NCBI GenBank assembly: GCA_022376465.1
Contig: JACDTU010000010.1
Coordinates: 62,001 to 126,000, forward strand
From: Cubamyces lactineus
Lineage: Eukaryota > Basidiomycota > Agaricomycetes > Polyporales > Polyporaceae
DNA: 64,000 nucleotides
Direction: 5' to 3'
Of this stretch, positions 1,451-25,245 are shown piece by piece. Positions within the stretch are counted from its first letter, which is position 1. Each line of letters starts with the position of its first letter. Made by a program: the position numbers and the translations under genes. Below the pieces are notes generated by a model that worked only from the letters and a program-made list of their open reading frames with translations, did not search any database and had not been told where the DNA came from.

Positions 1451-2143
1451 TGTTAGGACCGTGCCGTCCGGGGGTACAACTCCGGTGGTCGGGACTTGGA
1501 CGGAGTTCGGGGTCGGAGTACGACCGGAGGTCGGACTAGCACTGGGGTGAGGACTTTCGCGAAACTATTAGTAACGCACGGGTTCCGACTCGGTGTCCTC
1601 TATTTGCGGACTTCGGAGTACGGACTTGACGAGACGAAGGTCGGACTTGGGAACGGGGTTGGGTTGAAGGGGTTGGTAGGAAGGGAACGAAGGTTGGTCG
1701 GACTAGAGGGTCGGGGTTGAGTGTCGGACTACGAGTTGAACCAGTAATGGGTATAACGAGATTTCCGAACTGAGTAGCTACTACATTCCGGGGCAGTATT
1801 TATACTAAGTCAGAAACCCGATAGAAACAATAAGAGATGTACGTGATAGGAAGGAGTAGAACGAAAGTACGAAGTAACTTGCCAAGGGTAAGATAACGTA
1901 GATAGCTCAGTAAGCAAAAGCCTCATGTAGGTAGCGCCATGAGGGGTTATCTGAGACATGTAAGTCATGGGGTCGGGGGAAGTCCGAAGTACGGAGTACG
2001 AAGTGCGGAGTACGGAGAACGGAGTCGGGGGTACGGGGTACGGAAGAGCGGAGTACGGAGGAACGGAGTACGTAACGCGGAGTAAGGAGCGGGGTACGGG
2101 GGTTCGGGGATCGGGCTTCGGGGTTACAGCACGGAGCGTAACA
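1451..2143 (-). repeat. A1 3' LTR
   Basis: 693-bp terminal repeat, the downstream LTR in element orientation. The stretch 1975-2110 is a degenerate tandem array of CGGAGTAC-like units. Short ORFs that appear here recur in all four LTR copies and are not genes. Confidence 0.97.
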
Positions 2144-2280
2144 GTGCCTCCCCCCTAGGCCCGAACCCTTGAGGGCCTATAGTGAAGGGAAATGGAAGTC
2201 TGTCCAAAAAAGGTAATCCGATAAGTCCAGGGAACGGAGATCAAGAATCGGGGCAGGGTCAGAATCGATGAAGAAAGGTG

Positions 2281-2287
2281 TATATAA
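2281..2287 (+). promoter_or_regulatory. TATA box of the A1 antisense gene
   Basis: TATATAA lies 64 bases upstream of the ATG at 2351, outside the LTR and on the strand opposite to gag-pol. The gene therefore seems to have its own promoter. The same box is at 25102-25108 in A2. Confidence 0.7.
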
Positions 2288-2350
2288 GACGGGGGTGAGA
2301 CTTAGCCAGTTCGTCCTCGCTCTTTGTCCCCCACCACCACCACCAGCACT

Positions 2351-3744
2351 ATGTCCTCAACCCTCGACAACATTCAGGCTTTGGAGGCGCACCTTGCGCA
2401 GCTCCGGATGAAGGCAGCGGCGGAGGAGGCCGCAGCAGCCGAAGCGTAAGTACCGGGGTTGCCGGGGTTGCGGAGTACGGAGTTCGGGCTAACGGTGGTT
2501 TACAGGGCGCGAAAAGCGGAGGAGGAGCGAGCACGGGAGGAGAAAGAGCGCGCGGAGTACGAGGCCGCGCAGAAGGCAGCAGCGCTGATCCGCCAGGCTG
2601 CCCTCGCGAAGGCCGGGGCTTCCGCGCGGGGAAGCAAGCGTCCCGCGGAGGACGAGGAGCCGGAGTCGGAGGAGGAAGAGGACGACGCGGAGTTGCTCGT
2701 CCCGCGGTAAGTCCGGTCGGGGTACGGAGTACGGGGGTCGGACTAACGGAGTTCCACAGGACGAGGTGCGACCGGTGCGCCGCGAAGCAAATCGCGTGCC
2801 GGTTCCGCGCGGGCAAACGGACGTCGAGTTGCGTCCAATGCCAGAAAGCTCGGTCGCGCGCGTGCGTCGGGGCCCGCGGACTTCCCGCGGACATCCAAGC
2901 CCGGATCGCGCGCAAGGAGGAGGCCCCAAGCCCGCAGCGCAAGAAGGTCAAGTCCGCCCCCATCGTTGTCGACGACGACGGGTTTGAGACCCCCGCGCCC
3001 ACCGGAGTTCGGAGTTCGGAGAAGGTGCGGGCGGAGAAGGGCAAGGGGAAGGAGAAGGAGAAGGAGAAGACGGTGGAGAAGGCGGCGGAGAAGCCGCTGC
3101 AGCCAGGTGAGGTCCGATGGACCTTTGTCGCGCCACCCGGAATTAACCCCCCAGCACGAACAGTCGTCGCCCGAGGCCCGAGCATCGCAGGCTCGTCGAC
3201 GGGCCCTCGGATGTCCGCCAGCTCCGGACTTACGGAGGTTGGGAAGTCCGACCTCCGGTGGTCCGACGACCCGGAGAAGCTCTCCGACCGGGAGCTCCTC
3301 GAGCACCTGCTCGTCGCGGTGCAGCGCAACCGGCGCACCGCGGGGCGGGTCATCGACCTGCTGGTCGACGAGGAGGAGCAGCGGGAGGAGATGATGCGGG
3401 AGGAGGTCCGGGGTCTTGGCGATGCCATCGCCAAGATCGTGCGGAAGGAGTTGAAGGCCGTCATCGGCGAGGCCGTCCGCGAGGCGGTGAAGTCCGAACT
3501 CGCGACGGAGTTCAGGACTATGCTGCGGGAGATCCTTGAGATCACCTCGCAGGACAAGGAGGACGCGATCGCGGACGCGCTGGAGCGGGCGGGGGTTGCT
3601 GGGTCGGACTGGGAGGAGGAGAATGGGTCGGGGTTGGAGAAGTCCGCGCGGGGCAAGTCCGGTGAGGAGGAGGAGGAGCAGGGCGAGGGCGCGAAGGAGG
3701 GGAAGGGGCCGGAGGACCCGGCGGACATGGACATGGCGGAGTAG
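2351..3744 (+). CDS. A1 antisense accessory gene: Zn2Cys6-like protein, 3 exons
   Basis: Exons 2351-2445, 2506-2706 and 2760-3744, introns of 60 and 53 bp with GTAAGT/CAG ends; the joined frame is 426 aa with no stop. Seen in the protein: an N-terminal Ala/Glu coiled-coil stretch (about 5-60), an acidic patch (about 80-95), then six cysteines at residues 102, 105, 112, 123, 126 and 134 spaced C-x2-C-x6-C-x10-C-x2-C-x7-C. This fits the Zn(II)2Cys6 binuclear cluster of fungal DNA-binding proteins, and basic residues lie between the cysteines. A Lys/Glu-rich segment (about 185-205), a helical charged region (about 270-350) and an acidic tail follow. A DNA- or RNA-binding role is inferred, for example self-regulation or targeting. 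The gene is convergent with pol; the two stops are 107 bp apart. A2 carries the same gene with one residue changed (Arg here, Gly there). Confidence 0.85.
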
Positions 3745-3851
3745 GGCGGTAGTACGGACTTCGGACCTCGGACTTCGTAGCTAGTATCTTGTAGTCCGAG
3801 TGCGGAGGAGTATAGAAAGAAATCTGCTGGTGAGAACTCCGCGTGTGAACT

Positions 3852-6800
3852 TCAAGACAATTTAGCAAGAGGTCCGGGCTTGTCCGGGTAAGCTGCGTGG
3901 AAGTCCGAAACTAGCTCCTGGGCATGTCCGAGCTCCGTGGCCAAGATCCACGAAGTTTCTTCGTCCGTACCTTCGTAGCCTGCCCATCGGACTAGGTACA
4001 GGAGTTGACAACTCCGACGCCGGCGGTCAATCTTGGAGTCGAGGATCTCCGAAATCTCGTACTCCGGTTCTCCGTCCACCAGGATCGGAGGTGGCGGAGT
4101 TTGGACGCGGCCGGGGATGGTGTTCGGAGTTGCAGGCTCGAGTTGTGAGACATGGAAAACGGGGTGTACCGCGTGCATAGAGTCCGGTAGTCGGAGGGTG
4201 AAGGAGTGAGTTCCGACCTGCGCGATGATAGTGAACGGACCTAAGAACTTCTCGGACAACTTTTTGGAGGGACGAGTAGTCCGGATGTGCTGAGCTCGGA
4301 CATAGACCTGATCTCCGACCTTGAAGTCCGGCGCGGGTAGACGGTGTTTGTCCGCCTGTACTTGGTACCGGGCCTGGGCTTCGGCGATCTGCTGTCGGAG
4401 TTGGGTGTGAAGTTCGTCGAGGTCGACAGCGTAGTCGCGAGCTCGAGCGGAGGTGAGGTCCCGCTCGGGGTAGACGGAGATGGCGGGGTTGTAGCCCTTG
4501 TTCGCGAAGAACGGGGATATACCGGTAGTTGCGGACGGAGCATTGTTGTACGCGAACTCCGCCAAGGGAAGGAGTTGGGACCAGTTGTCCTGCTGGTAGT
4601 TCGAATAGATCCGGAGGTACTGCTCGAGGGTCTGGTTAACCCGCTCGGTTTGACCGTCGCCTTCCGGGTGGTAACCGGAGGTGAAGTGAAGGCGCATGTC
4701 GAGGGCCTTACCGAGGGAGCGGAAGAAGTGAGAGACGAACTCCGAGCCCCGGTCGGAGGTAACGTGCGAGGGAACTCCGTGCTTGGAGAACACATGGAGT
4801 ACGAACAAGTCCGCTAACTCCGAGGCTGTAAGCGTGTCGTGGGTAGGGATGAATATACCTTGCTTAGTGAGCCTGTCGACTACCACCAAGATCGCGGTGT
4901 AGCCAGCGGAGTTCGGGAGTTGCTCGATGAGGTCCATGGAGATGGAGTTCCAGGGTCGCTCGGGGATCGGGAGTTGCTTCAAAGTACCGTAGGGGAGATG
5001 CCGGGGGACTTTAGCTCGCGCACAGGTAGTACAGGACTTACAATAGTCCCGGACGAAGAGTCGAAGTCCGGGCCAGGCGTAGTCCCGCAGGACCAGGGCT
5101 TGCGTCTTGTTCTGTCCCCAGTGTCCGGCAGTAGGGTGGTCGTGACAAGCTCGGAGTACGCGAAGGCGGAGGTCGCCGGAGTTCGGGACATAGACTCGAC
5201 CTGAGAGTCGGAGTAGCCCGTCTTCATCGCGGGACCATCGGGAGTTACCTTCGGAGGCGAGCTTGAGTGCAGCAGATAGTTCGGGGTCAGGAGTCGGGGT
5301 TGCTTGAGCGGACTTGATGTCCGAGAGGAGTTGTTCGGAGTCGAGGACGAAGGAAGCTCGGAGTACGGGGGGTCGGAGGTAGGTAGCCCGGAGGGACGCG
5401 GCGAGCTGCTCCTGGGTGAAAACCGGTCGGTAGTTGTGTGGGTTGACGACGGAGTAGTCACTGCCCCCCTCTTTTGGGTAGACGTCCCAACGGCGTGTCA
5501 GTGCGTCGGGCTTCGCTCCAAGCTTACCTGGCCGGAACCGGACTACGAGGTTGAACTGCGAGAGGAACTCCGACCATCGGGCTTGACGGCGGGTCAGTAA
5601 CTTCGTAGTCGCGAAGTATACCAAATTCTTGTGGTCCGTGACAACGTCGATCGGGGTTGCCGAACCTTCGAGGTAGTGCCGCCAGGTCTTGAAACATTCG
5701 AAGATCGCGAGGAGTTCCTTGTCGTGGGTGTCGTAGTTCAACTCCGCGCCGGTCAAGGTGCGGGAGTGGAAGGCAATGGGGTGGAGTTCACCGGACTCGG
5801 TGGTAATGGAGAGAATGCCGGCGATGGCGTAGTCCGAGGCGTCAGTCTCGACGGTGAGGGGTCGGTCGGGCATCCAGTGGTGTAGTACCGGAGCTGTCGT
5901 GAACGCCTTCTTGAGAGCGTTAAACGAACTCCGACATTCCTCGGAGAAGTGCCAAGGCACGGACTTGCGGGTTAAGCGGGTCAGCGGTAGTACGATCTCG
6001 GAGTAGTTTGGAATAAACCGTCGATAGAAGTTCGCGAACCCCAGGAACGACTGTATGTCGCGGACCTTCCGGGGTTCGGGCCAATCCAAGATCGCCTTAA
6101 CCTTCGACTCCGCCATGGTGAGTCCGGTGGGAGAGAGGATGTAACCGAGGTACTCGACGGAGTCGGTGTGGAACTCGCACTTGTCAGCGCGGGCATAAAG
6201 CCGGTGCTTGCGGAGTCGCCGGAGTACCTCTTTGACGTGCTTGCGGTGTTGCTCGGGGTTGTCGGAGTAGATGAGGATGTCGTCCAGGTAGACGATGACG
6301 CACACATCGAGCATGTCCGCGAAGATGTCATTGACGAACCGCTGGAAAGCAGCGGGCGCGTTAGAAAGTCCGAACGGCATGACTAACCATTCGAAAGACC
6401 CATAGCGGGTCCGAAACGCGGTCTTCCACTCATCTCCGGGAGCTATGCGGACTAGGTTGTAGGCGTGACGGAGGTCGATTTTGGTATAGATCCGGGCCTT
6501 CCGAGGCGCGTCCAGCAAGTCCGAGACGAGAGGAAGGGGGTAGCGGTCCTTCCGGGTGATCTTATTCAAGCCCCGGTAGTCCACGCAAAGGCGAAGAGAT
6601 CCGTCCTTCTTTTTGACGAAGAGGACGGGAGCTCCGCAGGGAGAGTTGGACGGACGTATGAACCCCGATCGGAGGTTCTCGTCAATATACTCCCGAAGCG
6701 TGTCGAGCTCGAGTTTTGAGAGGGAGTAAATAGGTCCGAGTGGCGGAGTAGCCCCTTCTTCCAGGTCGATCTTTAAGTCGTAGGGGCGATGCTCCGGTAG

Positions 6801-7577
6801 GATGTCGGCCTTGGTCTTGCTGAAGACGTCCGCAAACTCGTGGTACTCCTCCGGAACTCCGGTGAGGTCCGGGGGAGAGTCGGAGATGGACGAACTCCGC
6901 GCAGTAGCCAAGTCCGGGGTAGACAGGTTCAGGGTATAGCTCGCGGACCCCGGGAGTTTGCAAGCCCGAGCGAAAGCAGCAGCGTTCACAAGGGAGATCC
7001 GGGGTACGGAGGTCGGAGTAGGAGAAGTCGGTAGTTCCGGAGTAGCCGGAGTAGACGGAGTAGACGGAGTACGCTCAGCCGGAGCTGGCGGGGGTACCAT
7101 GGTGTCAGAAACAGGACGCGGCGGGGGTGCGGAACGGAATTGGATGCTGCGCTTCTTCCAGTCAATCAACGGATTGTAGGCGGAGAGCCAGCTGTATCCC
7201 AGAACGGCAGACACGGACTTGTCGAGCGGAGTAACATAGAAATCTATATTGAGGACTTCTCCAGACGGGAAATGTACGGGCAGAGTGGTAAACGAAGTAA
7301 TCAGGTGGTTAGAAGTACCGTCAAAAAGCTGTAGACGGAGCGGGGTTACGGCGGTAGTTGGGAGTTGATACATAGTCGCGAAATCGGAGTCGATGAAACA
7401 ATGGGAGGAACCGGAGTCGATAAGGGCGCGGAACGGAGTTGGGATAGGATCGGAGTACAAGTCGAGGAGGAGTGCATGGGGGTCGGAAAGAGCGGACGCG
7501 TTGAGCCTGAGGATCTCCGTACCGGAGGAGTCAACGCGGTCCTCACGGGGTACGGAGTTCGGAGGACCGCGGACTAA
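3852..7577 (-). CDS. pol: A1 pol polyprotein (PR-RT-RH-IN-chromodomain), -1 frame
   Basis: Open for 1241 codons after the frameshift site. In order: aspartic protease with a DSG triad; reverse transcriptase with the VDYRGLN and YLDD motifs; RNase H starting near VETDASDYA; integrase with an HHCC zinc domain (H...H...CKSCTTC) and DDE core (MDLIEQLP, SDRGSEF, ERVNQTLEQ); a C-terminal chromodomain (EYEISEILDSK ... LVRWAGYEG). It makes the particle protease, copies the RNA and integrates the cDNA; the chromodomain is expected to bind methylated histone tails and steer integration. There is no ATG of its own at the start; it is made as a Gag-Pol fusion through the signal at 7515-7583. All visible catalytic motifs are intact. 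Confidence 0.96.
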   Translation of the reverse strand, partial: LVRGPPNSVPREDRVDSSGTEILRLNASALSDPHALLLDLYSDPIPTPFRALIDSGSSHCFIDSDFATMYQLPTTAVTPLRLQLFDGTSNHLITSFTTLPVHFPSGEVLNIDFYVTPLDKSVSAVLGYSWLSAYNPLIDWKKRSIQFRSAPPPRPVSDTMVPPPAPAERTPSTPSTPATPELPTSPTPTSVPRISLVNAAAFARACKLPGSASYTLNLSTPDLATARSSSISDSPPDLTGVPEEYHEFADVFSKTKADILPEHRPYDLKIDLEEGATPPLGPIYSLSKLELDTLREYIDENLRSGFIRPSNSPCGAPVLFVKKKDGSLRLCVDYRGLNKITRKDRYPLPLVSDLLDAPRKARIYTKIDLRHAYNLVRIAPGDEWKTAFRTRYGSFEWLVMPFGLSNAPAAFQRFVNDIFADMLDVCVIVYLDDILIYSDNPEQHRKHVKEVLRRLRKHRLYARADKCEFHTDSVEYLGYILSPTGLTMAESKVKAILDWPEPRKVRDIQSFLGFANFYRRFIPNYSEIVLPLTRLTRKSVPWHFSEECRSSFNALKKAFTTAPVLHHWMPDRPLTVETDASDYAIAGILSITTESGELHPIAFHSRTLTGAELNYDTHDKELLAIFECFKTWRHYLEGSATPIDVVTDHKNLVYFATTKLLTRRQARWSEFLSQFNLVVRFRPGKLGAKPDALTRRWDVYPKEGGSDYSVVNPHNYRPVFTQEQLAASLRATYLRPPVLRASFVLDSEQLLSDIKSAQATPTPDPELSAALKLASEGNSRWSRDEDGLLRLSGRVYVPNSGDLRLRVLRACHDHPTAGHWGQNKTQALVLRDYAWPGLRLFVRDYCKSCTTCARAKVPRHLPYGTLKQLPIPERPWNSISMDLIEQLPNSAGYTAILVVVDRLTKQGIFIPTHDTLTASELADLFVLHVFSKHGVPSHVTSDRGSEFVSHFFRSLGKALDMRLHFTSGYHPEGDGQTERVNQTLEQYLRIYSNYQQDNWSQLLPLAEFAYNNAPSATTGISPFFANKGYNPAISVYPERDLTSARARDYAVDLDELHTQLRQQIAEAQARYQVQADKHRLPAPDFKVGDQVYVRAQHIRTTRPSKKLSEKFLGPFTIIAQVGTHSFTLRLPDSMHAVHPVFHVSQLEPATPNTIPGRVQTPPPPILVDGEPEYEISEILDSKIDRRRRSCQLLYLVRWAGYEGTDEETSWILATELGHAQELVSDFHAAYPDKPGPLAKLS

Positions 7578-7583
7578 TTTTTT
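7515..7583 (-). promoter_or_regulatory. A1 gag-pol -1 frameshift signal: slippery site plus pseudoknot
   Basis: On the minus strand the heptamer A AAA AAT (7583-7577) ends directly at the gag TAG stop. Five bases later a 10-bp stem begins, and its loop can pair with a 9-base sequence downstream, giving an H-type pseudoknot. Details are given for the identical A2 copy. Confidence 0.85.
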
Positions 7584-9043
7584 GTCTCCTTCGGGGCTGC
7601 AGCCGGAGCGGGCGCAGCGGGAGCGGGGTTGGCTTGAGCGGCGCGACCCTTAGTCGCGGACGAGGTCTTCTTCGGACAAGCACTCGCGGTATGACCAGCT
7701 CCACCGCAGAAGAGACAGAGATTGTTGGCGAAACGGCGTTGACGCTCCTCGGGGGTGAGTTTTCCGTCCTTACCGAGCTTGTCGGTGTACGTCTTGGCCG
7801 GGGTCTTCGGAGTCTTAGGAGACTTCGACGAAATACCGGAATTGCCGGACTTGGACGGGGTAGACGAGGAGGCCTGTCCGGTGTTGTTACCTCCGGACTT
7901 GTTGCCGGAGTTGGAGGACTTGGAGTCGGAGGTCGACTTGTTACCGGACTTCGAAGGTCCGGACTCGCGCGAGACCTCGGCCTTGCGCTCCCAGTAGCGG
8001 TTGTCGATCGACTGCGCGAGGTCGCGAAGGGCCACCAGGGTCTCGGGCTTGCCGACCTCGGAGATGCGGTCCTTGAGACGGTTCGGAAGTCCGTCGTAGA
8101 ACCGGTACCGGAGCGGAGCATTACCCCAACGGACTTGAGTAGCGAGGCGGGTGAACTGAGTGATGTACTTAGCTATCCGCTGGTTGTCGCCCATCCGGAG
8201 GTTCATCAGCTCATGCTCCGCAGCTCCGGAGGCGTCGTAAGGACCGAAGTTCACTCGGAGTTCCTCCTGGAAGTGGTCGTAGGATGTAAGGAAGATGGGG
8301 GGTTTGTCCGAGTCGCCTTCGAGGAGGTAGGGCTCGAACCACTGTAGCGCGGTGCCCTTGAGGAAGGAGATGGCGTAGGTCACCTTCTTCTCATCGGAGT
8401 CGAAGGTTCGGGGTCGGGCCTTGAAGACAAGTTCCAACTGCGTGAAGAAGGACCGGAGTTTGTTGGGGTCGGACCCGTCGAACTGGTCCGGCTCGCGGAC
8501 GTTGTGCCGCTCGTTGTTCGAAGGTTGGGTAACCGCCGGAGTTGGAGCGGTAGTACGTTCGAGGGTACGCGCGATGAGAGAGATCGCGGTCGCTAGTTGC
8601 GACTGAACCCGGTCTTCGGAGTCGGAGGAGTCCGAGCTTGAGCTAGTGTCGTCGTCTCCCGGCCCTTGTGGGTCGTTGTCCGGAGGGCCTGGCGGTCCTG
8701 GAGGGCCCGGCGGACCTGGAGGACTAGGCGGACCCGGAGGCCCGCGGCTCGGACCTGAAGGCTGACCCTCGGAGAACGGGTTCCCCGGAGATGGCTCGCG
8801 GGGTACCTGCGAGGCAGTCGCGGTAGAGATGACCAGAGGCTGAGGCGGGTCACCTTCGTCGTCCCCATCGGAGGACGCTTCGACGATTGTTCGAGCGAAC
8901 TGCCCGCGGCGGCTCGGAGTAGCTTCTTCTTGCGTCGCTGAGTCGCCTCGGCGAGCTGTCCAGCCACTCCAGTTCTCGGCGGGGTCTTCTTGCTCTAGGG
9001 CGCGAGATTGCGTCTGAGTGCGGACTACGGTTCGAGTGGACAT
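7574..9043 (-). CDS. gag: A1 gag
   Basis: 489 aa from ATG 9043. Residues about 95-125 are a collagen-like run of Gly-Pro-Pro triplets, followed by an Asp/Ser-rich stretch. A capsid-like retrotransposon-gag domain follows (about 160-330), then a Lys/Ser-rich linker and one zinc knuckle CLFCGGAGHTASAC (C-x2-C-x4-H-x4-C, about 445-458), then an Ala/Pro tail. It is the structural particle protein. Translation ends at TAG in the frameshift site, so Gag alone should be the main product. The protein is identical to that of A2; the few DNA differences here are silent. Confidence 0.96.
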   Translation of the reverse strand: MSTRTVVRTQTQSRALEQEDPAENWSGWTARRGDSATQEEATPSRRGQFARTIVEASSDGDDEGDPPQPLVISTATASQVPREPSPGNPFSEGQPSGPSRGPPGPPSPPGPPGPPGPPGPPDNDPQGPGDDDTSSSSDSSDSEDRVQSQLATAISLIARTLERTTAPTPAVTQPSNNERHNVREPDQFDGSDPNKLRSFFTQLELVFKARPRTFDSDEKKVTYAISFLKGTALQWFEPYLLEGDSDKPPIFLTSYDHFQEELRVNFGPYDASGAAEHELMNLRMGDNQRIAKYITQFTRLATQVRWGNAPLRYRFYDGLPNRLKDRISEVGKPETLVALRDLAQSIDNRYWERKAEVSRESGPSKSGNKSTSDSKSSNSGNKSGGNNTGQASSSTPSKSGNSGISSKSPKTPKTPAKTYTDKLGKDGKLTPEERQRRFANNLCLFCGGAGHTASACPKKTSSATKGRAAQANPAPAAPAPAAAPKETKN

Positions 9044-9061
9044 ATTGAGTGAAACCCGGTG

Positions 9062-9072
9062 AGTTCGGAAAT
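9062..9072 (-). other. A1 self-priming primer-binding site
   Basis: Two bases inside the 5' LTR end, the minus strand reads ATTTCCGAACT, an exact complement of AGTTCGGAAAT at 9395-9385 in the same LTR. That position lies 33 bases after the TATA box (9428-9421). This is the Tf1/sushi layout in which the RNA 5' end primes reverse transcription. Confidence 0.8.
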
Positions 9073-9074
9073 AC

Positions 9075-9767
9075 TGTTAGGACCGTGCCGTCCGGGGGTA
9101 CAACTCCGGTGGTCGGGACTTGGACGGAGTTCGGGGTCGGAGTACGACCGGAGGTCGGACTAGCACTGGGGTGAGGACTTTCGCGAAACTATTAGTAACG
9201 CACGGGTTTCGACTCGGTGTCCTCTATTTGCGGACTTCGGAGTACGGACTTGACGGGACGAAGGTCGGACTTGGGAACGGGGTTGGGTTGAAGGGGTTGG
9301 TAGGAAGGGAACGAAGGTTGGTCGGACTAGAGGGTCGGGGTTGAGTGTCGGACTACGAGTTGAACCAGTAATGGGTATAACGAGATTTCCGAACTGAGTA
9401 GCTACTACATTCCGGGGCAGTATTTATACTAAGTCAGAAACCCGATAGAAACAATAAGAGATGTACGTGATAGGAAGGAGTAGAACGAAAGTACGAAGTA
9501 ACTTGCCAAGGGTAAGATAACGTAGATAGCTCAGTAAGCAAAAGCCTCATGTAGGTAGCGCCATGAGGGGTTATCTGAGACATGTAAGTCATGGGGTCGG
9601 GGGAAGTCCGAAGTACGGAGTACGAAGTGCGGAGTACGGAGAACGGAGTCGGGGGTACGGGGTACGGAAGAGCGGAGTACGGAGGAACGGAGTACGTAAC
9701 GCGGAGTAAGGAGCGGGGTACGGGGGTTCGGGGATCGGGCTTCGGGGTTACAGCACGGAGCGTAACA
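9075..9767 (-). repeat. A1 5' LTR with promoter
   Basis: 693-bp LTR upstream of gag in element orientation. It carries TATAAATA on the minus strand at 9428-9421; the predicted RNA start is near 9395. Confidence 0.97.
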
Positions 9768-9772
9768 GAAGG
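9768..9772 (+). repeat. Target-site duplication of A1, right copy (GAAGG)
   Basis: Second copy of the 5-bp duplication; the B reading frame resumes right after it. Confidence 0.97.
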
Positions 9773-12690
9773 TCCCCTCTCAGGCGACAGGTGCTGCGAA
9801 TCAGGCTTTGCCAACCATGGTCAAGATTGAAGATCTCGCGCGGGCTCTGCGATTGCTGGCACAGAAAGTTAGCGAAGGCCCTGCAGGTGCAGCGGGGTAC
9901 ATGGCGGATCACCTCACAGGTCCGCTACTGGGTTCACCTTGCTACCAGCCAGGCTCTGTGTCGTGCAACTCGCGCTGCTCCTCTCTGGGTGGAAACTCCT
10001 GTCACTACTGCGGTAGTGCTGGCTGCAAGTTGCGAAGCTGCCCCTTTGTGGAGGAAGACCTTCGCGCGAGGCGTTGTGTGCGGAATCAAGATGGTCGCGT
10101 TGTCCTGCCAAACAAGAGCTTCATCCCCCGTCAGCTTCCAGGTTTCAACGGCCTTGCTATGCGCGACAGGCTGTACGAGTGGCATAGGCGGCACAGCGCA
10201 GACACACCACCTCCAATGACACGGACAGGCCTCTTCATCGCATCCGAGGGGCCTAGCGCAAACATTCCCAACCGCAGTGTTGAAGACAGGATTGCGCACC
10301 TCAAGCACGAGCTTCTCATACTGCAGCGGAGCAGGCGAAGACACCCTGACGCTATAGAGGCTCCCCAAGTTCGCACACTGCGCTCGCGGCAGTATTCCTC
10401 ACCTGCGCAACCCAGGGATCGTTCACCGGGATCTCAGACCTTCGCAAGCTGCGAAGTATCTTCAAACTGTCCTGCCACCCTCGATTGCGAAGACAGAAGC
10501 CGAGAGTCACCAGTGGCTACGTGGAGCCACCCCTGTATGCGCGAAGAATCCTTGCAGGCCGACCCCCACAGGATAGGACCAGATGAGGCTGCGGCTACAG
10601 GTAGGGAGGCCAGCATCCCTCGCATAACTATCAGGCCACCTACGCCCGAGCCAGCACTCCAGGAACAGTCCTTGCCACCTGAGCATCCCTTCGCGAAGGC
10701 TCGTAGCCCATTCTACACATCTCTCCGAGTTCGCGACTCCAGCACTTCAACTCTGCGACGTGAGGGTGATGATCGCAAGCCTGCTTATCGGACCCGCCCT
10801 CTGACCCAGCCAGAGGATCTTGTTGAGGGATTCTTTCAGCGATCTAGGACCTCACCATACCTCTCCGTTCCAGCGGAGGCAATCCCATTGATTCCGCCAG
10901 ACTCTTCCACCTGGCGCCGTGAAGAGCCTGCCCCCGGACATATCGCAACAGAGTCGCATGTAGTACCTTCCCCTGAGGCTGACAACGCGACGGCTCCGGA
11001 CTCCTGCGAAGTCTACCTTCGCGATTTTGCCTCCCCTGACAAATCTGAGGGCTTGCTAGCTGCTAGAGAGACTTGCCCTTCTGTGGAACTTGTGATCGCC
11101 CTTCCGGACTCCAGCACCGCGGAGCCCGCGACGATCCCTACTGCCACCCGCGAGCATGGTCTTGAGCTGGAGGAGGCACCTAAGGCCCTGCTAGCCTTGC
11201 ACTGTGGAGGCGAAGAAGAGATGGCACCCGCCGCGGTGGAGGAGAGTGATTGCGACGATCTGGCTCTCATCCTTGCCTTACATCCACCTACCTGCGACAA
11301 CCTCTCCGAGATTGCGAGACCCTCATGCGCTCCAAAACCCTGCAATGCGACTCCTCCATTCAGTCTGCATCCACTGCTGCTTTTGTGTCCTGTGTGTTTC
11401 TTGCGCCCCCTCCGCCTACATCCCCTAGCTTGGCTCCAGAACGCGCTTACGATCACCCATATGCCCCACCTCAGACTGCAACAGAACATCCTAGCAATCG
11501 CATGGCGTTACACCCTGCTCACGACTATGTGTCTGCGAAGTGCGAAGCCGTCCTCCTCCTTGACACCTGTGTTAGTGCCCCCTAGCAAGCGGAAAGGCGA
11601 AGGACTTTCTACCCCCTGCTATCATGTTCGCGACTGTGTTCGCGTGGTCGCTCCGCAACCCCAAGTGGTGCCTGCTAGTGTACCCCCCTACGCGAAAGCT
11701 TTGACTACCTCATCCTCCCCTGAGCTGCCTATGCAACAAATACTCTCCCGTCGCTTGCGTTCCCTGCTTCTCTGCCATTTGTCTTTCCCCCATATCTGCT
11801 TCTGCCCCCTGTCACGCATTCCTTGGGCTGCGACGAACAGACAGGTCCTCAGCGATGCTTGCACAAGTCAAGGCAATGTACCAGTCATTTGCGAAGGCGC
11901 GATGCCTCTGTTTATCCCCACAAGAGCGAGGCGCGACCATCTAGACCTAGTCAACCGGTTCGCACGGCGAGAGGCAACAGAGGACAGCAGCGAACTCAGT
12001 GAGGGGGAGAAGGCGAGCCCAGAGACGAGTCAAGCTACTGGCAAGGTTGTGAAGTTGCGACAATGTGAGGGTGCGAACTGGACTGCTGGCTATCCTCCCC
12101 TTCGCGGACTTTGGCCGTACCTGCGAAGGCAAGCTTGGCAACAAGACCACTCTTTTGGACCCTTGCGAAGAATGTGCAGCACGCTACCACTCCTACAAAG
12201 TCTCCGCAGCCCTACCCTTCCGACTCCTATCCTTCTGGCCCTATCCCACAACCCACCTGCCGTCATGTGTTGGCGACCACCCTCGCCGAGCCTCTGGGTC
12301 ATCTGTCACAAGCCCGCAATCCACTTCGCCAAAGAGCGAATGGATCGCGGCCACGATACTGGAATCGCGTACAAGCAATTCATCCTTGCAAGACTTGAAA
12401 CTTCACGGCAGGCTCAGTACACCAGTGCCCAGCTCGTGCAACGAACCACACCCTCCTTCATGTGTATCCAACTCCCTCTGCTCGCCCATTTCACCTTCCC
12501 CAGGCAACTCTCAGTGCAGCAACCTGTCTCCTCTTGGGTGTATGCTGGTTCGCGCGCAATGTATAGTGGCAATTTGCAACAGTGTTCGCATTCACACTTG
12601 AGCTTCAATGCGCAAGTGGCAATTGCAGCACCGACTGAGGACAGTCGAGATTTCAGTGGGGGGGAGATGATGCGCATGTTGCCTGCCTAG
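9773..12690 (+). pseudogene. Element B Gag-like ORF, C-terminal part
   Basis: Continues the frame broken at 1450 (codon split G/TC) for 972 more codons to TAG 12690. About 70 residues in is a zinc-knuckle-like CHYCGSAGCKLRSC, in which the usual His is Cys (C-x2-C-x4-C-x4-C). After it comes a conserved-looking module, GRVVLPNKSFIPRQLPGFNG, ending in YEWHRRHS. I recall similar modules after the knuckle in basidiomycete Gypsy Gags, but cannot test this here. The remaining 800 residues are rich in Ser, Pro, Ala, Cys and Arg and hold no protease or polymerase motif. The DNA is peppered with the word GCGAA in all frames, so part of this long ORF may be open because of composition rather than selection. 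Confidence 0.65.
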
Positions 12691-13993
12691 GCTCAGAAGA
12701 ACAAACTCGCACCTTCGCTAACTGCGCCCTCCAGCTGCCTCTTGTGCTAGCAGCCCTCGCGCGAAGGCTCTCCCTCTAATGTACTGTCTGGCGAAGCCTC
12801 TGCTCCCTCTCATGCGACTCTGCAACTCCCCTCAGTGACTTCCCCTTCGCATCTCTCTTCCATCCTGGTCTGGCGCATCACGCGAACACATCCTATTCCC
12901 TTGCGAGCACACTACTCCTCCCGCAAAGACACTGCTCCTCCTGCGAAGCCACCACCTCTCCCGCGAACACTCTGCATCACTTGCGAGCTGCCTACCCTCC
13001 TTGACAGGCTATAGCAAGCCAGCGAAAGTCAGCGAAGATGGCGCTACATCATTTGCGAGCCACCCTCAAGCCGACAGGGATGTGCTAGAGCGTGGCACAC
13101 TTGCTAGCCTCGCGGTGCACTTAGTGCACTCACACGGTGATGCGCATGGTGCCGGTCCAGAGTCAGAGCAGAGGGCTATCGCTGCGGTGTCTCCCCTCCT
13201 TTCCGCGGCGGTCTCATCTACACCTTTGCCAGTCGCGACCTCGCGCAACTCTTCGCACGTCCGCGGGACCCTTTGCACACACCTGGAGCACTCGCGCCTG
13301 CGCTCTTGGACTCCTGTGGATCTGCACTCCCCTCCCCCTGCCCTCGCGGATGTGTTGTGCCCAGCTACGGACCGTATCGGCCGACGGAAACAATGCGGAA
13401 TGGCGCCATATGGCGCAAGAGGTAGAGCAGAGCCTATAGGAGGCTGCGGAGAGGTCGCGTGGCGAGCTGGCCCCGCGATGAGGCCAGGCGGCCTCGCCAA
13501 GACTTGATGGACTGTAGCACAGCATCCCCCCCCCTCCAGAGTCGAGCACCATACGCTCCTCCCTCCGAGGGCTGGCGGACAGAGAACTTGGCCCCTTCCC
13601 CACCAGACCACAAATCCCCACTTCCCTTCACTACTGCTAGAGTCTTTCAGCTGCAATCCTTCTTCTGTACACACGTCCTCTGCTAATCTATAACTTGACA
13701 CCTTACGAATCTTTGGCCTGCGACTGCGAGCCCTGCGACTGTGAACCCTGCAACAGCGAACCCTGCGACTGCGAACTGTGAAGACAGCAAACCCCCAAAG
13801 CCTGCAAAACCTGCGAAACCCTGCGAGTTCAGAGTGCGAAGTTGCGAGTGCTACGTCTGCAGGATTGTGGGAGTTTGTGTAAAAGCTAGCTGCGTTCCCC
13901 TCCTTTCCTTCATATACTCTGCAACTGCTGCGAACCTGCCAACCACGAACCTGCGAAGCTTGCAACTGCGAAGTCTGCGAAGACACGAAGACG
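12691..13993 (+). other. Element B 3' internal region, no gene recognised
   Basis: About 1.3 kb between the ORF stop and the 3' LTR or its possible start. It has fragmentary ORFs on both strands without known motifs and many GCGAA words. A purine run (gtggggggagatgatg) at about 12656-12671 could be a polypurine tract, but no LTR start follows it clearly. Confidence 0.5.
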
Positions 13994-14400
13994 TGAAGCC
14001 TGTGGATTGCAAGGCTAGCAGTGCTCCCCTCCTTCCCTTTCCATCCAGCGGACCTGCGACATCCTCTCCCATCCTCTCCCATCTCTGTACCCTTTGCGAG
14101 GTTGGACAATACAGATGCCCTTCCCCCATACCCTTAGGGTCTCTCACTTGTGATATTTACGACCTTGCGAAATCTGCGAACTTGCGAACTGCGAAACTGC
14201 GAACTGCGAACTGCGAACTGCGAACTGCGAACCCTTGCGAACTGCGAACTGCGAACCCTTGCGACGACCTTGCGAAGATCTGCGAAACCACTTAGCTGCG
14301 AAACGGCGTGAAGCCACGAGGACAGACTCCGCGAAAAGTTTGCGAAACCGCGTGTTGCGAAAACCTGCGAAACTCCGCGACATTGGCGAAATCGACAGCC
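13720..14400 (+). repeat. Degenerate tandem array of TGCGAAC units in element B
   Basis: A short word of the type CTGCGAAC(CCTT) is repeated many times; about 15 GCGA words fall within roughly 130 bases at 14161-14290. The units are irregular, about 6-12 bp, without spacers, so this is a microsatellite-like array and not CRISPR. Confidence 0.85.
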
Positions 14401-14419
14401 CGCGCTCCTCTCCCCTTGT

Positions 14420-14689
14420 CCCCTTCCCCCTTTCTCCTTCCCCGTGTATCCGCGAACCCTTTCCCTGCGCTCTCGCCAGCGTCGCGTCCTTCGCAAAGGC
14501 CAGCCAACCCTCTCTACCCACTCCCTTTGGTCCTAGGCTTTGCTACGGTTCGCGCCAGTCACAGGGCACCCGACTCCAACCTCCCTTCTCCTTCGCGTCC
14601 TTTCCCCTCTCCCCCGCCAGCAGGCCTCGACCTACAAAGGCTCTCGGCCCGAGTAGTATCCTTCCCTTACGGGTGGGTTAGACGCTTCA
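14420..14689 (+). repeat. Element B 3' LTR, portion matched by 1-270
   Basis: Matches 1-270 and ends in GCTTCA. The true LTR start is further left. Two upstream positions start with the inverted end sequence TGAAGC (13994, which would give 696 bp; and 14309, which would give 381 bp); neither can be chosen from this window. Confidence 0.9.
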
Positions 14690-17621
14690 ACGCGTGGAAC
14701 ACGGGGTGTACCTTCCAGTGTTTCGGCAGCTCCAGCCGATAGGTCACGGGTCCGAGGACCTCGGTGATGACAAAGGGCCCTTCCCGTTTTGGTGCAAGTT
14801 TCCGGGATGCGTAGGCGAGGTTGAGGTTCTTCCCTTCGAGCCAGACCTTCTGTCCCTTCTTGAATTGGACGAACTTTCCCTTGAATCTGTCACTCATGAC
14901 GTGTCGGGCTAGTTCGTGAGCTGCTAGGGCTTCGTCCCTGGCCTTCTGGAGGTTTGCCAGCCGTTCTTGTACTGTCGGGGTGTTGGTCTTGGGGTATGCG
15001 ATGGGAATCAGCGTCGGTTCATACCCCATCATGAGGTAGAAGGGTGATGCATTTCGTGCCGAATGGATCCGTTGGTTGTGTGCAACTTCGGCATCAATGA
15101 GGTGTTCTGCCCATTCGTCCGGTCGACCTTCGCAGAATATTCTGAGGTAGACTTCCAGTTCTTGATTCACGCGTTCGGTTTGTCCGTCGGTTTGCGGGTG
15201 GTAGGCGGTGGATGGGGAGAGTGTGATGCCCAGGAGTTTCCCTAGTTCGCGGGTGACGTTGGACACAAACTGTGGTCCTCTGTCGGATATGACCTTGCTG
15301 GGTAGTCCAAAGCGTCGATAGACGTGCCGGTGGTAGAGCGCCGCTGTGCTGATTGCATCGATCGTCTTCTTGCATGGTGCAAAGATCACCCCCTTCGTAA
15401 GGCCATGGTCGACCACGACCAGAATACTATCGTAGCCGTGGGATTCGGGGAGATCGGTGATGAGATCCATCATGACATTCTGGAATGGCCGAGTAACATC
15501 GTCAGCGGGGATTGGTTGTGGGGGCGGGGTGGTCGGGTGTGTGTTGGGCTTGTTCTGCTGGCATGTAGCACAGCCTTCGACGTATCGGGATACCATGGCA
15601 TACATGCCGGGCCACCAGTATGACCGTCGTATCAGTTCTAGAGTCTTGAATTTCCCAGGGTGTCCGGCTGCCGGGGAGTCGTGGTGTTGACTGATCAGGT
15701 CTCGTCGCAGAGCTTCGTCGGCCGGTACGTAGCATCGGTTCTTGTAGAAGATTAAGCCATCTCGTTCTTGCCAATCGGTGAGTGCACTTCTGATCGGGGG
15801 TGGTCCGTCGTGTTGGATGGCGGCAAGTGCATCGCAAAAGAGTCTGTCTTGCGTGGCCAAGTGTCGGAATTTTGGTGCCAGTCGGGTGTCCACTAGTCGT
15901 ACGAAGAGGTTGTCAGGTAGCATGGTTCGTTCAGTATTGTCGTCTTCTGATCCTTGTCGGTGATCGGGTCTTCGGGATAGCGCATCCGATTGTACCATTG
16001 CCGTGCCGGGGGTGTGTACGAGTTGGATGTCGAACTGGGAGAGAAAGAGGGCCCATCGTGCCTGTCGTCTGTTCAGTTGTTGCGGGTTGTGCCAGTAGGT
16101 GAGGTTCTTGTGGTCGGATAGGATCGTAACCGGGTGCCCTGATCCTTCGAGGTAGTGTCGCCAGGCCTTCAGGGCTCGAATGATGCCAAGTAGTTCTCGG
16201 TCATAGATTTCGTAGTTCCGTTCCGCTTCGGTGAATCCTTCGGATAGATACGCGCACGGGTGCAGGTCGCCGTTGGCGTCTCGTTGCCGGAGTACTGCCC
16301 CTGTGGCCCATTGCGAAGTGTCGGATTCAACGACAAAGGGTTTGCTAACATCGGGCATTTGCAGCACGGGGGCCGTCGCGAATCGTTGCTTCAGCATGTC
16401 GAAGGCCTTCTGGCATTCCGTTGTCCATTCCCATTTGGCGTCTTTCTTGGTGAGCGCGTTGAGCGGTCGCGCGATCTCCGAGAAGTGGTCGATGAATCGT
16501 CGGTAGAAGTTGCCGAATCCAAGGAATGATCGAACGTCCTTGACGGTTGTCGGTTCTGGCCAGTCGAGTATTCCCTTTATCTTGATAGGGTCCATGGAGA
16601 TCTGGTTCTCGCTGATGATCATTCCAAGATACTCCACTTCTGGTGCGTCGAATATGCACTTCTCTAGCTTGAGGTAGAGGTCGTGTTCTTTAAGTCGTTC
16701 CAGGACACGTAAGGTCCTTCTTCGGTGTTCGTCCAGGTCTGCCGAAAAGATCAGTATGTCGTCCATGTAAATCACTACCCATCCTTCGTCGATCATGTCT
16801 GCGAAGATCGCGTTCATCATAGCTTGGAAAGCCGAGGGGGAGTTCCGCAGTCCAAAGAACATGACCATTGGTTCGTATAGCCCTTTGCTGGTTCTGAAGG
16901 CGGCCTTCCATTGATCACCGTCCTTGATACGGACGTTGTTGTATCCCGATCGGATGTCCAGTTTGGAGAAAACCTTCGCTCCGCGCAGCTTGTCGACCAG
17001 TTCCGATATGAGCGGTAGTGGGTACTTGTTGGGGACGGTTCCTTCGTTGAGGTATCGATAATCTTGGCAGGGTCGTAGTGTTCCGTCCTTCTTGCCGACG
17101 AAGAAGAATGGGGATGCCATCGGCGAGTTCGAGGGTCGGATGTAGCCTTTTTGTAGGTTCTCCCGGATGAATTCTTCCTCGGCTTCGAGTTCCTTGGGCG
17201 TGAGTTGATATCGCTTGAAGTCCTTCGGGGTAAAGCCTTCCTTGAGTTCAATGGCCAGGTCCCAGGGTCGTGATGGTGGGAATCGTTCGGACGCCTTCTT
17301 TTCAAAGATGGCGGCATATCCTCGGTACGGTTCGGGGAGCATCTCTTCGAAAGTCTTCTTCTCTTCCTGTGCTTGGTGCTGTTGTGCGAGTGCCATTGCG
17401 GGGTTGACCTTTGCTCGGATCCAGACGTTGGCTGCAATTGCAAATCGAAGTCCTTGTGGGGCTCGTCGGATTCTTCCGATGGTGGGTCCAGGTCCGATCT
17501 TGGTGGGTTCGTAGTCGTGTTCCGTGGTGAGGGGGGATCCGGGTCGAGGCATATCTCCGTGCCATTCTGTCGCGTGCGGTGCTATCATGGCTTCGTGTTC
17601 TCCGCGAAGATAAGCTATCAG
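14690..17621 (-). pseudogene. pol: Element C pol, RT-RNase H-integrase segment
   Basis: Open from the A2 insertion to the B insertion, about 977 codons. Reverse transcriptase with [10 protein letters not shown] and the YMDD catalytic motif (16769-16758); RNase H with [13 protein letters not shown]; integrase with an HHCC zinc domain (HHDSPAAGH...CATCQQNK) and DDE core ([30 protein letters not shown]). It ends in HPVFHA, the motif that in this family precedes the C-terminal domain or chromodomain, which was cut off by B. The first residues ([10 protein letters not shown]) are in the same frame as the protease segment once A2 and one ATCAG are removed. An ATG-started reading of this frame would begin inside the A2 LTR; that part is not pol. 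Confidence 0.93.
17617..17621 (+). repeat. Target-site duplication of A2, left copy (ATCAG)
   Basis: ATCAG precedes the A2 LTR and recurs at 25939-25943 directly after it. Confidence 0.97.
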
Positions 17622-17960
17622 TGTTACGCTCCGTGCTGTAACCCCGAAGCCCGATCCCCGAACCCCCGTACCCCGCTCCTTACTCCGCGTTACGTACTCC
17701 GTTCCTCCGTACTCCGCTCTTCCGTACCCCGTACCCCCGACTCCGTTCTCCGTACTCCGCACTTCGTACTCCGTACTTCGGACTTCCCCCGACCCCATGA
17801 CTTACATGTCTCAGATAACCCCTCATGGCGCTACCTACATGAGGCTTTTGCTTACTGAGCTATCTACGTTATCTTACCCTTGGCAAGTTACTTCGTACTT
17901 TCGTTCTACTCCTTCCTATCACGTACATCTCTTATTGTTTCTATCGGGTTTCTGACTTAG

Positions 17961-17968
17961 TATAAATA
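17961..17968 (+). promoter_or_regulatory. TATA box of A2 5' LTR
   Basis: TATAAATA, 33 bases before the A at 17994 that would start the RNA if the self-priming model is right. Confidence 0.75.
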
Positions 17969-17993
17969 CTGCCCCGGAATGTAGTAGCTACTC

Positions 17994-18004
17994 AGTTCGG
18001 AAAT
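17994..18004 (+). other. Predicted RNA 5' end, self-primer strand
   Basis: AGTTCGGAAAT. It is complementary over 11 bases, and no further, to the primer-binding site at 18317-18327. In Tf1 the first 11 nt of the RNA fold back in the same way and are cleaved to make the primer. Confidence 0.75.
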
Positions 18005-18316
18005 CTCGTTATACCCATTACTGGTTCAACTCGTAGTCCGACACTCAACCCCGACCCTCTAGTCCGACCAACCTTCGTTCCCTTCCTACCAACCCCTTCA
18101 ACCCAACCCCGTTCCCAAGTCCGACCTTCGTCCCGTCAAGTCCGTACTCCGAAGTCCGCAAATAGAGGACACCGAGTCGAAACCCGTGCGTTACTAATAG
18201 TTTCGCGAAAGTCCTCACCCCAGTGCTAGTCCGACCTCCGGTCGTACTCCGACCCCGAACTCCGTCCAAGTCCCGACCACCGGAGTTGTACCCCCGGACG
18301 GCACGGTCCTAACAGT

Positions 18317-18327
18317 ATTTCCGAACT
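18317..18327 (+). other. A2 primer-binding site
   Basis: ATTTCCGAACT, beginning two bases after the LTR end; complement of 17994-18004. No TGG start, so tRNA priming is unlikely. Confidence 0.8.
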
Positions 18328-18345
18328 CACCGGGTTTCACTCAAT

Positions 18346-19815
18346 ATGTCCACTCGAACCGTAGTCCGCACTCAGACGCAATCTCGCGCCCTAGAGCAAG
18401 AAGACCCCGCCGAGAACTGGAGTGGCTGGACAGCTCGCCGAGGCGACTCAGCGACGCAAGAAGAAGCTACTCCGAGCCGCCGCGGGCAGTTCGCTCGAAC
18501 AATCGTCGAAGCGTCCTCCGATGGGGACGACGAAGGTGACCCGCCTCAGCCTCTGGTCATCTCTACCGCGACTGCCTCGCAGGTACCCCGCGAGCCATCT
18601 CCGGGGAACCCGTTCTCCGAGGGTCAGCCTTCAGGTCCGAGCCGCGGGCCTCCGGGTCCGCCTAGTCCTCCAGGTCCGCCGGGCCCTCCAGGACCGCCAG
18701 GCCCTCCGGACAACGACCCACAAGGGCCGGGAGACGACGACACTAGCTCAAGCTCGGACTCCTCCGACTCCGAAGACCGGGTTCAGTCGCAACTAGCGAC
18801 CGCGATCTCTCTCATCGCGCGTACCCTCGAACGTACTACCGCTCCAACTCCGGCGGTTACCCAACCTTCGAACAACGAGCGGCACAACGTCCGCGAGCCG
18901 GACCAGTTCGACGGGTCCGACCCCAACAAACTCCGGTCCTTCTTCACGCAGTTGGAACTTGTCTTCAAGGCCCGACCCCGAACCTTCGACTCCGATGAGA
19001 AGAAGGTGACCTACGCCATCTCCTTCCTCAAGGGCACCGCGCTACAGTGGTTCGAGCCCTACCTCCTCGAAGGCGACTCGGACAAACCCCCCATCTTCCT
19101 TACATCCTACGACCACTTCCAGGAGGAACTCCGAGTGAACTTCGGTCCTTACGACGCCTCCGGAGCTGCGGAGCATGAGCTGATGAACCTCCGGATGGGC
19201 GACAACCAGCGGATAGCTAAGTACATCACTCAGTTCACCCGCCTCGCTACTCAAGTCCGTTGGGGTAATGCTCCGCTCCGGTACCGGTTCTACGACGGAC
19301 TTCCGAACCGTCTCAAGGACCGCATCTCCGAGGTCGGCAAGCCCGAGACCCTGGTGGCCCTTCGCGACCTCGCGCAGTCGATCGACAACCGCTACTGGGA
19401 GCGCAAGGCCGAGGTCTCGCGCGAGTCCGGACCTTCGAAGTCCGGTAACAAGTCGACCTCCGACTCCAAGTCCTCCAACTCCGGCAACAAGTCCGGAGGT
19501 AACAACACCGGACAGGCCTCCTCGTCTACCCCGTCCAAGTCCGGCAATTCCGGTATTTCGTCGAAGTCTCCTAAGACTCCGAAGACCCCGGCCAAGACGT
19601 ACACCGACAAGCTCGGTAAGGACGGAAAACTCACCCCCGAGGAGCGTCAACGCCGTTTCGCCAACAATCTCTGTCTCTTCTGCGGTGGAGCTGGTCATAC
19701 CGCGAGTGCGTGTCCGAAGAAGACCTCGTCCGCGACTAAGGGTCGCGCCGCTCAAGCCAACCCCGCTCCCGCTGCGCCCGCTCCGGCTGCAGCCCCGAAG
19801 GAGACAAAAAATTAG
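18346..19815 (+). CDS. gag: A2 gag
   Basis: 489 aa, ATG 18346, first ATG after the primer site. Gly-Pro-Pro triplet run at about residues 95-125, capsid-like gag domain at about 160-330, Ser/Lys-rich linker, zinc knuckle CLFCGGAGHTASAC at about 445-458, Ala/Pro-rich tail ending in PKETKN. It forms the cytoplasmic particle and packages the RNA through the knuckle. The stop TAG (19813-19815) is part of the frameshift signal. The collagen-like run is unusual for a Gag and is kept in both copies. Confidence 0.96.
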   Translation: MSTRTVVRTQTQSRALEQEDPAENWSGWTARRGDSATQEEATPSRRGQFARTIVEASSDGDDEGDPPQPLVISTATASQVPREPSPGNPFSEGQPSGPSRGPPGPPSPPGPPGPPGPPGPPDNDPQGPGDDDTSSSSDSSDSEDRVQSQLATAISLIARTLERTTAPTPAVTQPSNNERHNVREPDQFDGSDPNKLRSFFTQLELVFKARPRTFDSDEKKVTYAISFLKGTALQWFEPYLLEGDSDKPPIFLTSYDHFQEELRVNFGPYDASGAAEHELMNLRMGDNQRIAKYITQFTRLATQVRWGNAPLRYRFYDGLPNRLKDRISEVGKPETLVALRDLAQSIDNRYWERKAEVSRESGPSKSGNKSTSDSKSSNSGNKSGGNNTGQASSSTPSKSGNSGISSKSPKTPKTPAKTYTDKLGKDGKLTPEERQRRFANNLCLFCGGAGHTASACPKKTSSATKGRAAQANPAPAAPAPAAAPKETKN

Positions 19816-19874
19816 TCCGCGGTCCTCCGAACTCCGTACCCCGTGAGGACCGCGTTGACTCCTCCGGTACGGAG
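19806..19874 (+). promoter_or_regulatory. A2 gag-pol -1 frameshift signal
   Basis: Slippery heptamer A AAA AAT at 19806-19812, in the right phase with gag (ACA AAA AAT TAG) and followed at once by the gag stop. After a 5-nt spacer, stem 1 pairs 19818-19827 with 19845-19854 (10 bp, core CGCGGTCCT/AGGACCGCG). The loop segment 19832-19840 (CTCCGTACC) pairs perfectly with 19866-19874 (GGTACGGAG), making stem 2 of an H-type pseudoknot (9 bp). Pol is open in the -1 frame from this point. Heptamer, spacer and knot fit the rules for -1 ribosomal frameshifting. Stem 2 must be weighed against the abundance of CTCCGTAC words in this element. Confidence 0.85.
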
Positions 19875-23537: not shown

Positions 23538-23644
23538 AGTTCACACGCGGAGTTCTCACCAGCAGATTTCTTTCTATACTCCTCCGCACTCGGACTACAA
23601 GATACTAGCTACGAAGTCCGAGGTCCGAAGTCCGTACTACCGCC

Positions 23645-25038: not shown

Positions 25039-25101
25039 AGTGCTGGTGGTGGTGGTGGGAGACAAAGAGCGAGGACGAACTGGCTAAGTCTCACCCCCGT
25101 C

Positions 25102-25108
25102 TTATATA
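25102..25108 (-). promoter_or_regulatory. TATA box of the A2 antisense gene
   Basis: TATATAA on the minus strand, 64 bases before the ATG at 25038 and outside the LTR. Confidence 0.7.
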
Positions 25109-25245
25109 CACCTTTCTTCATCGATTCTGACCCTGCCCCGATTCTTGATCTCCGTTCCCTGGACTTATCGGATTACCTTTTTTGGACAGACTTCCATTTC
25201 CCTTCACTATAGGCCCTCAAGGGTTCGGGCCTAGGGGGGAGGCAC

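Follow-up and report, generated by a model that had tools for sequence, protein, structure and literature searches.

An intron-bearing antisense gene with a six-cysteine cluster in a chromovirus of the basidiomycete Cubamyces lactineus

Antisense accessory genes in retrotransposons

What antisense accessory genes do in long terminal repeat (LTR) retrotransposons is described as an open question (PMC7264820). Here we analyse such a gene, with a predicted product of 426 amino acids (aa), in a chromovirus of Cubamyces lactineus. The element lies in a 64-kb stretch of contig JACDTU010000010.1 (positions 62,001 to 126,000), which we call the window. Among fungi, the Boty-like chromovirus of Botrytis and Sclerotinia is likewise an LTR element with a chromodomain and an extra gene, brtn, antisense to gag-pol (Zhao et al. 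2011, via PMC7264820, PMC4227169 and PMC8365987). However, Boty resides in ascomycetes, whereas the present host is a Trametes-like basidiomycete, and the likeness is drawn from the descriptions in citing papers. In plants, the antisense aORFs include the TRP28 open reading frame (ORF) of Retand, gene23 of Grande, and those of RIRE2 and PvRetro13; they lie between pol and the 3' LTR in most copies, and have nuclear or putative DNA-binding products and, in Grande, their own promoter (PMC11963269, PMC7264820). They differ from the present gene in belonging to plant elements and in having other domains; Retand is not a chromovirus, and neither a zinc cluster nor a family-specific CGG array appears in the excerpts of their descriptions. 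A different kind of system is VANC of the Arabidopsis VANDAL transposons, an anti-silencing, DNA-binding protein whose short target motif is amplified in its own family, often in tandem (PMC5735166, PMC10398659).

Searches of open-access titles and abstract beginnings, among their leading matches, returned no description of a zinc-cluster or Zn2Cys6 antisense gene in an LTR retrotransposon or chromovirus, and no comparable antisense or extra ORF in LTR elements of fungi, basidiomycetes, Agaricomycetes or Trametes. The novelty implied by an earlier reading of this DNA from its letters alone (the sequence-only reading) is narrowed by brtn, which already gives a chromovirus of fungi an accessory gene antisense to gag-pol (PMC7264820, PMC4227169). 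The kind of gene is therefore known; what is new, as far as the literature was searched, is an intron-bearing antisense gene with a six-cysteine cluster and protein-level selection across its family. A zinc-cluster-like domain, selection on the protein, near-identical young copies, a candidate CGG target and a small genome make the question of function testable here.

Structure and coding capacity of the antisense gene

The three-exon gene (2351-3744) sits between pol and the 3' LTR on the strand opposite gag-pol, which is the position of aORF-3R genes; its stop and the end of pol stand tail-to-tail with 107 bp between them. The features of the gene are as follows.

2152-2278, plus strand: upstream block separating the LTR from the antisense TATA box; 16 diverged copies share 98.7% identity with the window here
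2281-2288, plus strand: candidate TATA box TATATAAG, present in 36 of 36 aligned rows
2351-2445, plus strand: exon 1, beginning the N-terminal coiled-coil-like region
2446-2505, plus strand: intron 1, 60 bp, GT-AG, branch-site-like CTAAC at 2489, many CGG repeats
2506-2706, plus strand: exon 2, charged helix and acidic stretch
2707-2759, plus strand: intron 2, 53 bp, GT-AG, branch-site-like CTAAC at 2743, many CGG repeats
2760-3744, plus strand: exon 3, with the six-cysteine cluster, then a basic stretch, the conserved helix LSDRELLEHLL and an acidic tail; the stop is at 3742-3744
2767-2865, plus strand: six-cysteine cluster C-x2-C-x6-C-x10-C-x2-C-x7-C, exact spacing

The frame, the two canonical introns and the product length agree with the sequence-only reading. 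Both introns have the form GTAAGT...CAG, and in each the CTAAC starts 17 bases from the 3' end. The TATA box proposed in that reading is present as well, but TATATAAG begins 70 bp before the ATG (start to start), not 64. This conserved box and the upstream block, which in the 16 diverged copies is conserved above the exon level, point to a candidate promoter of the gene's own beside the 3' LTR. We infer that the gene is transcribed and spliced by the host.

The 36.3-Mb assembly containing the window was searched with the antisense product, giving 133 exon-level matches, and 50 loci, picked by presence of the gene, were examined. Four search places lie outside these 50: C20:322513 and C3:1169361, where pol adjoins, and C12:372978 and C40:1488515, which were left out. 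LTR, gene and pol stand together at 43 of the 50 gene-chosen loci. Three loci have no pol (L045, L048 and L052), four have no LTR in the fetched piece (L037, L043, L051 and L055), and none misses both; those with a missing part are interrupted, cut or deleted copies. Block 2152-3880 is 1,729 bp long, and 35 of the loci align to it over 1,600 bp or more; with the window they make up the 36 rows used here (the window's own copy is among the 35, and a further two are mutually identical). The ATG is present in all 36 rows, and the frame from ATG to stop is open in 23 of the 35 aligned copies and broken in 12. Intron 1 starts with GTAAGT in 35 rows, intron 2 keeps GT...AG in all 36, and no row is intron-less, as the sequence-only reading expected of a gene antisense to the genomic RNA. 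This bears out the spliced-type, antisense gene resident in the element that was described there.

An open frame alone would be unconvincing, because a 500-aa open frame also exists at this place on the minus strand, which is GC-rich and shares third positions. The pattern of change is more telling. Intron 1 varies from 45 to 61 bp across the rows, often by changes that are not multiples of three, while the spliced coding sequence (CDS) of every intact copy (1281-1323 bp) is a multiple of three. Substitutions at codon positions 1, 2 and 3 of the gene number 237:127:1036 (16 diverged copies, intact or not), a pattern like that of the pol end piece (106:68:469 in 17 copies). The dN/dS ratio between the window copy and eight intact diverged copies is 0.08-0.19, and over the 36 pairs of nine intact sequences it averages 0.153 (range 0.069-0.505); the same comparison read on the minus strand averages 0.223. 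Third-position changes that are silent on the plus strand only number 13 (9.8 expected), and those silent on the minus strand only number 1 (14.6 expected). Codon positions, dN/dS, the strand test and in-frame exon indels together establish that selection acts on the antisense protein, and the resident gene is almost certainly real and protein-coding.

The indels, the codon positions and the strand test favouring the plus strand also rule out a chance ORF, as well as an env-like ORF on the sense strand (2349-3851). A host gene outside the element is ruled out by the family LTR or pol found beside the gene at each of the 50 loci.

Copy-to-copy distances of the gene correlate with those of pol (r 0.91) and of the LTR (r 0.94; 0 of 2000 permutations each, 28 rows). 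Within the limits of loci chosen by the gene, it is found in most copies and conserved like the other element proteins, as are aORF-3R genes. The older copies among these 28 rows differ from the window copy by 7.1% on average in the gene (2351-3744), 2.6% in the pol end (3852-5150) and 5.6% in the LTR (1451-2143); parts of the element have perhaps had different histories, such as exchange between subfamilies. Two loci are unusual in structure. L048 (G000:C12:344000-349500) has an LTR, a broken gene and then an LTR in the opposite orientation; the fetched piece lacks the end of pol, and the locus is a rearranged or deleted derivative. In L058 (G000:C4:813000-822999) the gene region occurs twice, mirrored around about 818100 and interrupted each time, like a large inverted repeat.

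Sixteen database relatives of the protein were found, in Cubamyces sp. BRFM 1775 (3), T. cubensis (1), T. sanguinea (4), T. cinnabarina (7) and one further case (1). Several are truncated, as expected because the genes are element-borne. In T. cinnabarina P0013, a 67-column stretch aligns with this element's pol translated antisense (4569-4748; 48% identity, E 3e-12), which suggests that the gene travels opposite pol in that species as well. The searches scored about 8,000 candidates each (one of them 8), and absence from other taxa therefore means little.

The six-cysteine cluster and the CGG repeats of the element

The protein contains six cysteines in total, all in the cluster. It has an N-terminal charged helix, then the acidic stretch, the cluster, a GLPxxxQARIxRK segment and the basic stretch; a K/E/G-rich linker, a conserved DPxxLSDRELLEHLL...RV helix and the acidic tail follow. 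The cysteine spacing given in the sequence-only reading is exact, and in the six-frame translation of the window the pattern occurs only twice, once in each gene copy. It is intact in 34 of the 36 rows of the family and in 10 of the 16 database relatives; the other six lack part or all of that stretch. The Zn(II)2Cys6 family (PF00172) has the spacing limits C-x2-C-x6-C-x(5-24)-C-x2-C-x(6-8)-C, into which the cluster fits. However, the Zn(II)2Cys6 identity proposed earlier did not pass the profile test: the 426-aa product has no match to Pfam Zn_clus (PF00172) at E up to 10. Among 11 trimmed family members six match, the window protein not being one of these six; two match over only half of the profile, and the best reaches 18.1 bits against a curated cut-off of 21. 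Membership of PF00172 by profile is therefore rejected, and we file the protein as Zn2Cys6-like only. The fold matches of two related, non-independent predicted models are weak and mostly to Zn2Cys6 DNA-binding domains. With Gal4, HAP1, Leu3 and Pho7, fungal Zn(II)2Cys6 proteins, the product shares the six-cysteine spacing, the best of these weak fold matches and the availability of CGG direct repeats; it differs from them in falling below the Pfam cut-off, in the roughly 100 residues before the cluster and in being encoded by a retroelement. Taken together, a Zn2Cys6-like zinc-binding fold is probable.

The element itself is a Ty3/Gypsy chromovirus, with LTRs, a short target-site duplication and a pol in which reverse transcriptase, RNase H and integrase are followed by a chromodomain, all over their Pfam cut-offs (Chromo 26.3 bits, cut-off 25.1). 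The window holds two copies, A1 and A2, both young. The gene is present in both, as the sequence-only reading had noted, with a single base of difference.

1451-9767, minus strand: chromovirus copy A1, 8,317 bp, with the target-site duplication GAAGG on both sides
1451-2143, minus strand: 3' LTR of A1, 693 bp, 2 of 693 bases unlike the 5' LTR
1469-1727, plus strand: first CGG-rich LTR cluster, CGGRST sites, many direct repeats
1799-1804, minus strand: candidate gag-pol promoter TATAAA on the LTR sense strand
1974-2134, plus strand: second CGG-rich LTR cluster, U3-terminal, with the antisense TATA box about 150 bp downstream of it
3852-7649, minus strand: pol of A1 (protease, reverse transcriptase, RNase H, integrase, chromodomain)
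7574-9076, minus strand: gag of A1, open frame from stop to stop
9075-9767, minus strand: 5' LTR of A1
17622-25938, plus strand: copy A2, inverted relative to A1, target-site duplication ATCAG, 1 of 693 bases different between its LTRs
23645-25038, minus strand: antisense gene in A2, 1 base apart from the A1 gene (1,394 bp each)

On the plus strand of the LTR, CGG occurs 37 times and CCG 10 times. The motif CGGRST is found there 22 times, whereas dinucleotide shuffles predict 2.2; its sites form two clusters, and the commonest spacing between CGG triplets is 7 bp (12 pairs). The whole element has 138 CGGRST sites on the plus strand and 44 on the minus strand; none of the plus-strand sites lies in the 207 bp between the LTR and the ATG. 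Against synonymous-codon shuffles on both strands, pol has 79 sites versus 25 expected (z 13.2) and gag 23 versus 9.5 (z 5.7), and in pol each orientation is in excess (51 versus 17.6 and 28 versus 7.1). The spliced CDS of the antisense gene has 12 sites on its coding strand versus 4.9 expected, and on its other strand 7 versus 4.5, no significant excess. Seven further long ORFs, from parts of the window beyond both copies, gave z from -1.1 to 3.0, and the one at 3.0 overlaps an A2 LTR. Genome-wide, the tandem form CGGRSTNCGGRST is counted 867 times, compared with 212 for the reversed control; of 100 listed places, 85 were assigned to copies or LTRs of the element family (five of them to a probable solo LTR) and 15 to other places. 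As described for VANC, a short motif is thus over-represented and tandem within its own family.

Proposed role and alternatives

A regulator of the element is still our best guess, as it was one of those offered in the sequence-only reading; that the product binds DNA and regulates the element through the element's own sequence is, on the sequence evidence, an evenly balanced proposition. The resident gene, spliced by the host, would yield a protein that enters the nucleus as a dimer and binds CGG triplets in the LTRs and body of its own family, with CGGAGTACGGAGT as candidate target DNA for the cluster domain (about residues 95-160). Binding would keep copies transcribable by activating the LTR, by counteracting silencing, or by both; activation and anti-silencing may each apply, and the present data fit either. 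The U3-side cluster of the 3' LTR (1974-2134) is upstream of the antisense TATA box, and its counterpart in the 5' LTR precedes the presumed gag-pol TATA, so that one binding protein could feed both gag-pol and its own gene. Coverage of the whole element, as described for VANC (PMC5735166), is an attractive alternative because sites also fill the introns, gag and pol. The two systems share a TE-encoded DNA-binding protein, here a predicted one, and an amplified, tandem short motif. However, VANDALs are DNA transposons, and VANC21 sites are non-coding in the descriptions cited above, whereas CGGRST is also enriched in the CDS of gag, pol and the antisense gene; the present system is therefore VANC-like in its working at most. 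A further, rather doubtful step would be that the antisense zinc-cluster gene and some 180 CGGRST sites per copy form a self-recognition module, with the protein finding its kin only and keeping them active. If so, VANC-like sequence-specific anti-silencing or transactivation would have evolved independently in an LTR element, with zinc-cluster chemistry of a host type; and a protein that did read the CGG repeats would reveal a way for an LTR element to recognise its own family and escape silencing.

Two observations weigh against a link between the motif and the protein. CGGRST is not clearly better conserved than other patterns. In addition, A1 apparently sits within a second element, one bounded by a 270-bp repeat (1-270 and 14420-14689). 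The parts of that element around A1 (1-1450 and 9768-14689) are dense in a 7-bp motif of their own, TGCGAA/GCGAAC, which forms a clean tandem run near 14180-14260. Within the window this hosting element has no six-cysteine pattern, and dense motifs may therefore have some other cause common to LTR elements of this genome.

Rather than binding its own DNA, the protein might act on the host, as a suppressor of RNA silencing or as a tether steering integration to chosen chromatin or promoters. Ordinary CpG loss in 25 old LTRs is nearly all to TpG/CpA (0.180 of 0.184), and the host therefore probably methylates the family; the loss in the gene block is less purely of this type (0.087 of 0.129), and non-coding changes pooled otherwise comprise 324 transitions and 291 transversions. 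Under methylation a counter-measure would pay, and the protein's long helices and its tracts of basic and acidic residues would be in keeping with a partner of chromatin. Such a host-directed role nevertheless leaves the dense, family-specific CGG motif unexplained, and the element's own chromodomain could already do the targeting; we consider it unlikely. The motif would be accounted for if the cluster were an RNA-binding zinc module for packaging or export of the genomic RNA, with the repeats (ASYCCG in the sense RNA) as RNA signals, since it spans gag, pol and the LTRs, exceeds codon usage and is strand-biased (138 to 44). An RNA signal, however, would not need the excess of both orientations in pol, and the weak fold matches are DNA-binding domains, which leaves this reading improbable.

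The origin and the coding status of the gene have alternatives of their own. Capture of a host transcription-factor gene, which the sequence-only reading had entertained, would, if recent, fit the retained introns, since a gene captured antisense should keep them, and Zn2Cys6 domains are common in the genome (25 PF00172 matches). But the gene occurs in old and young copies alike, with family LTR or pol at all 50 loci, and host zinc clusters show little similarity to the protein; a recent capture is thus unsupported and very improbable, while an ancient one may have occurred. That the antisense RNA alone matters, through small interfering RNA or interference, with the reading frame incidental, is hardly credible. 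The gene is complementary to the genomic RNA over its full length, but as a sole function this is refuted by the codon-position bias, the low dN/dS, the strand test and the multiple-of-three exon indels.

Apart from its dense motif, the element hosting A1 has two long ORFs. The one at 652-1539 shows a weak likeness to a Ty3 capsid (E 0.09) and to DUF7041 (E 1e-5, below the cut-off), and that at 9766-12687 (974 aa) has no Pfam match. A pol-like ORF of a further Gypsy element lies on the minus strand at 14667-17801, its upstream end cut by A2.
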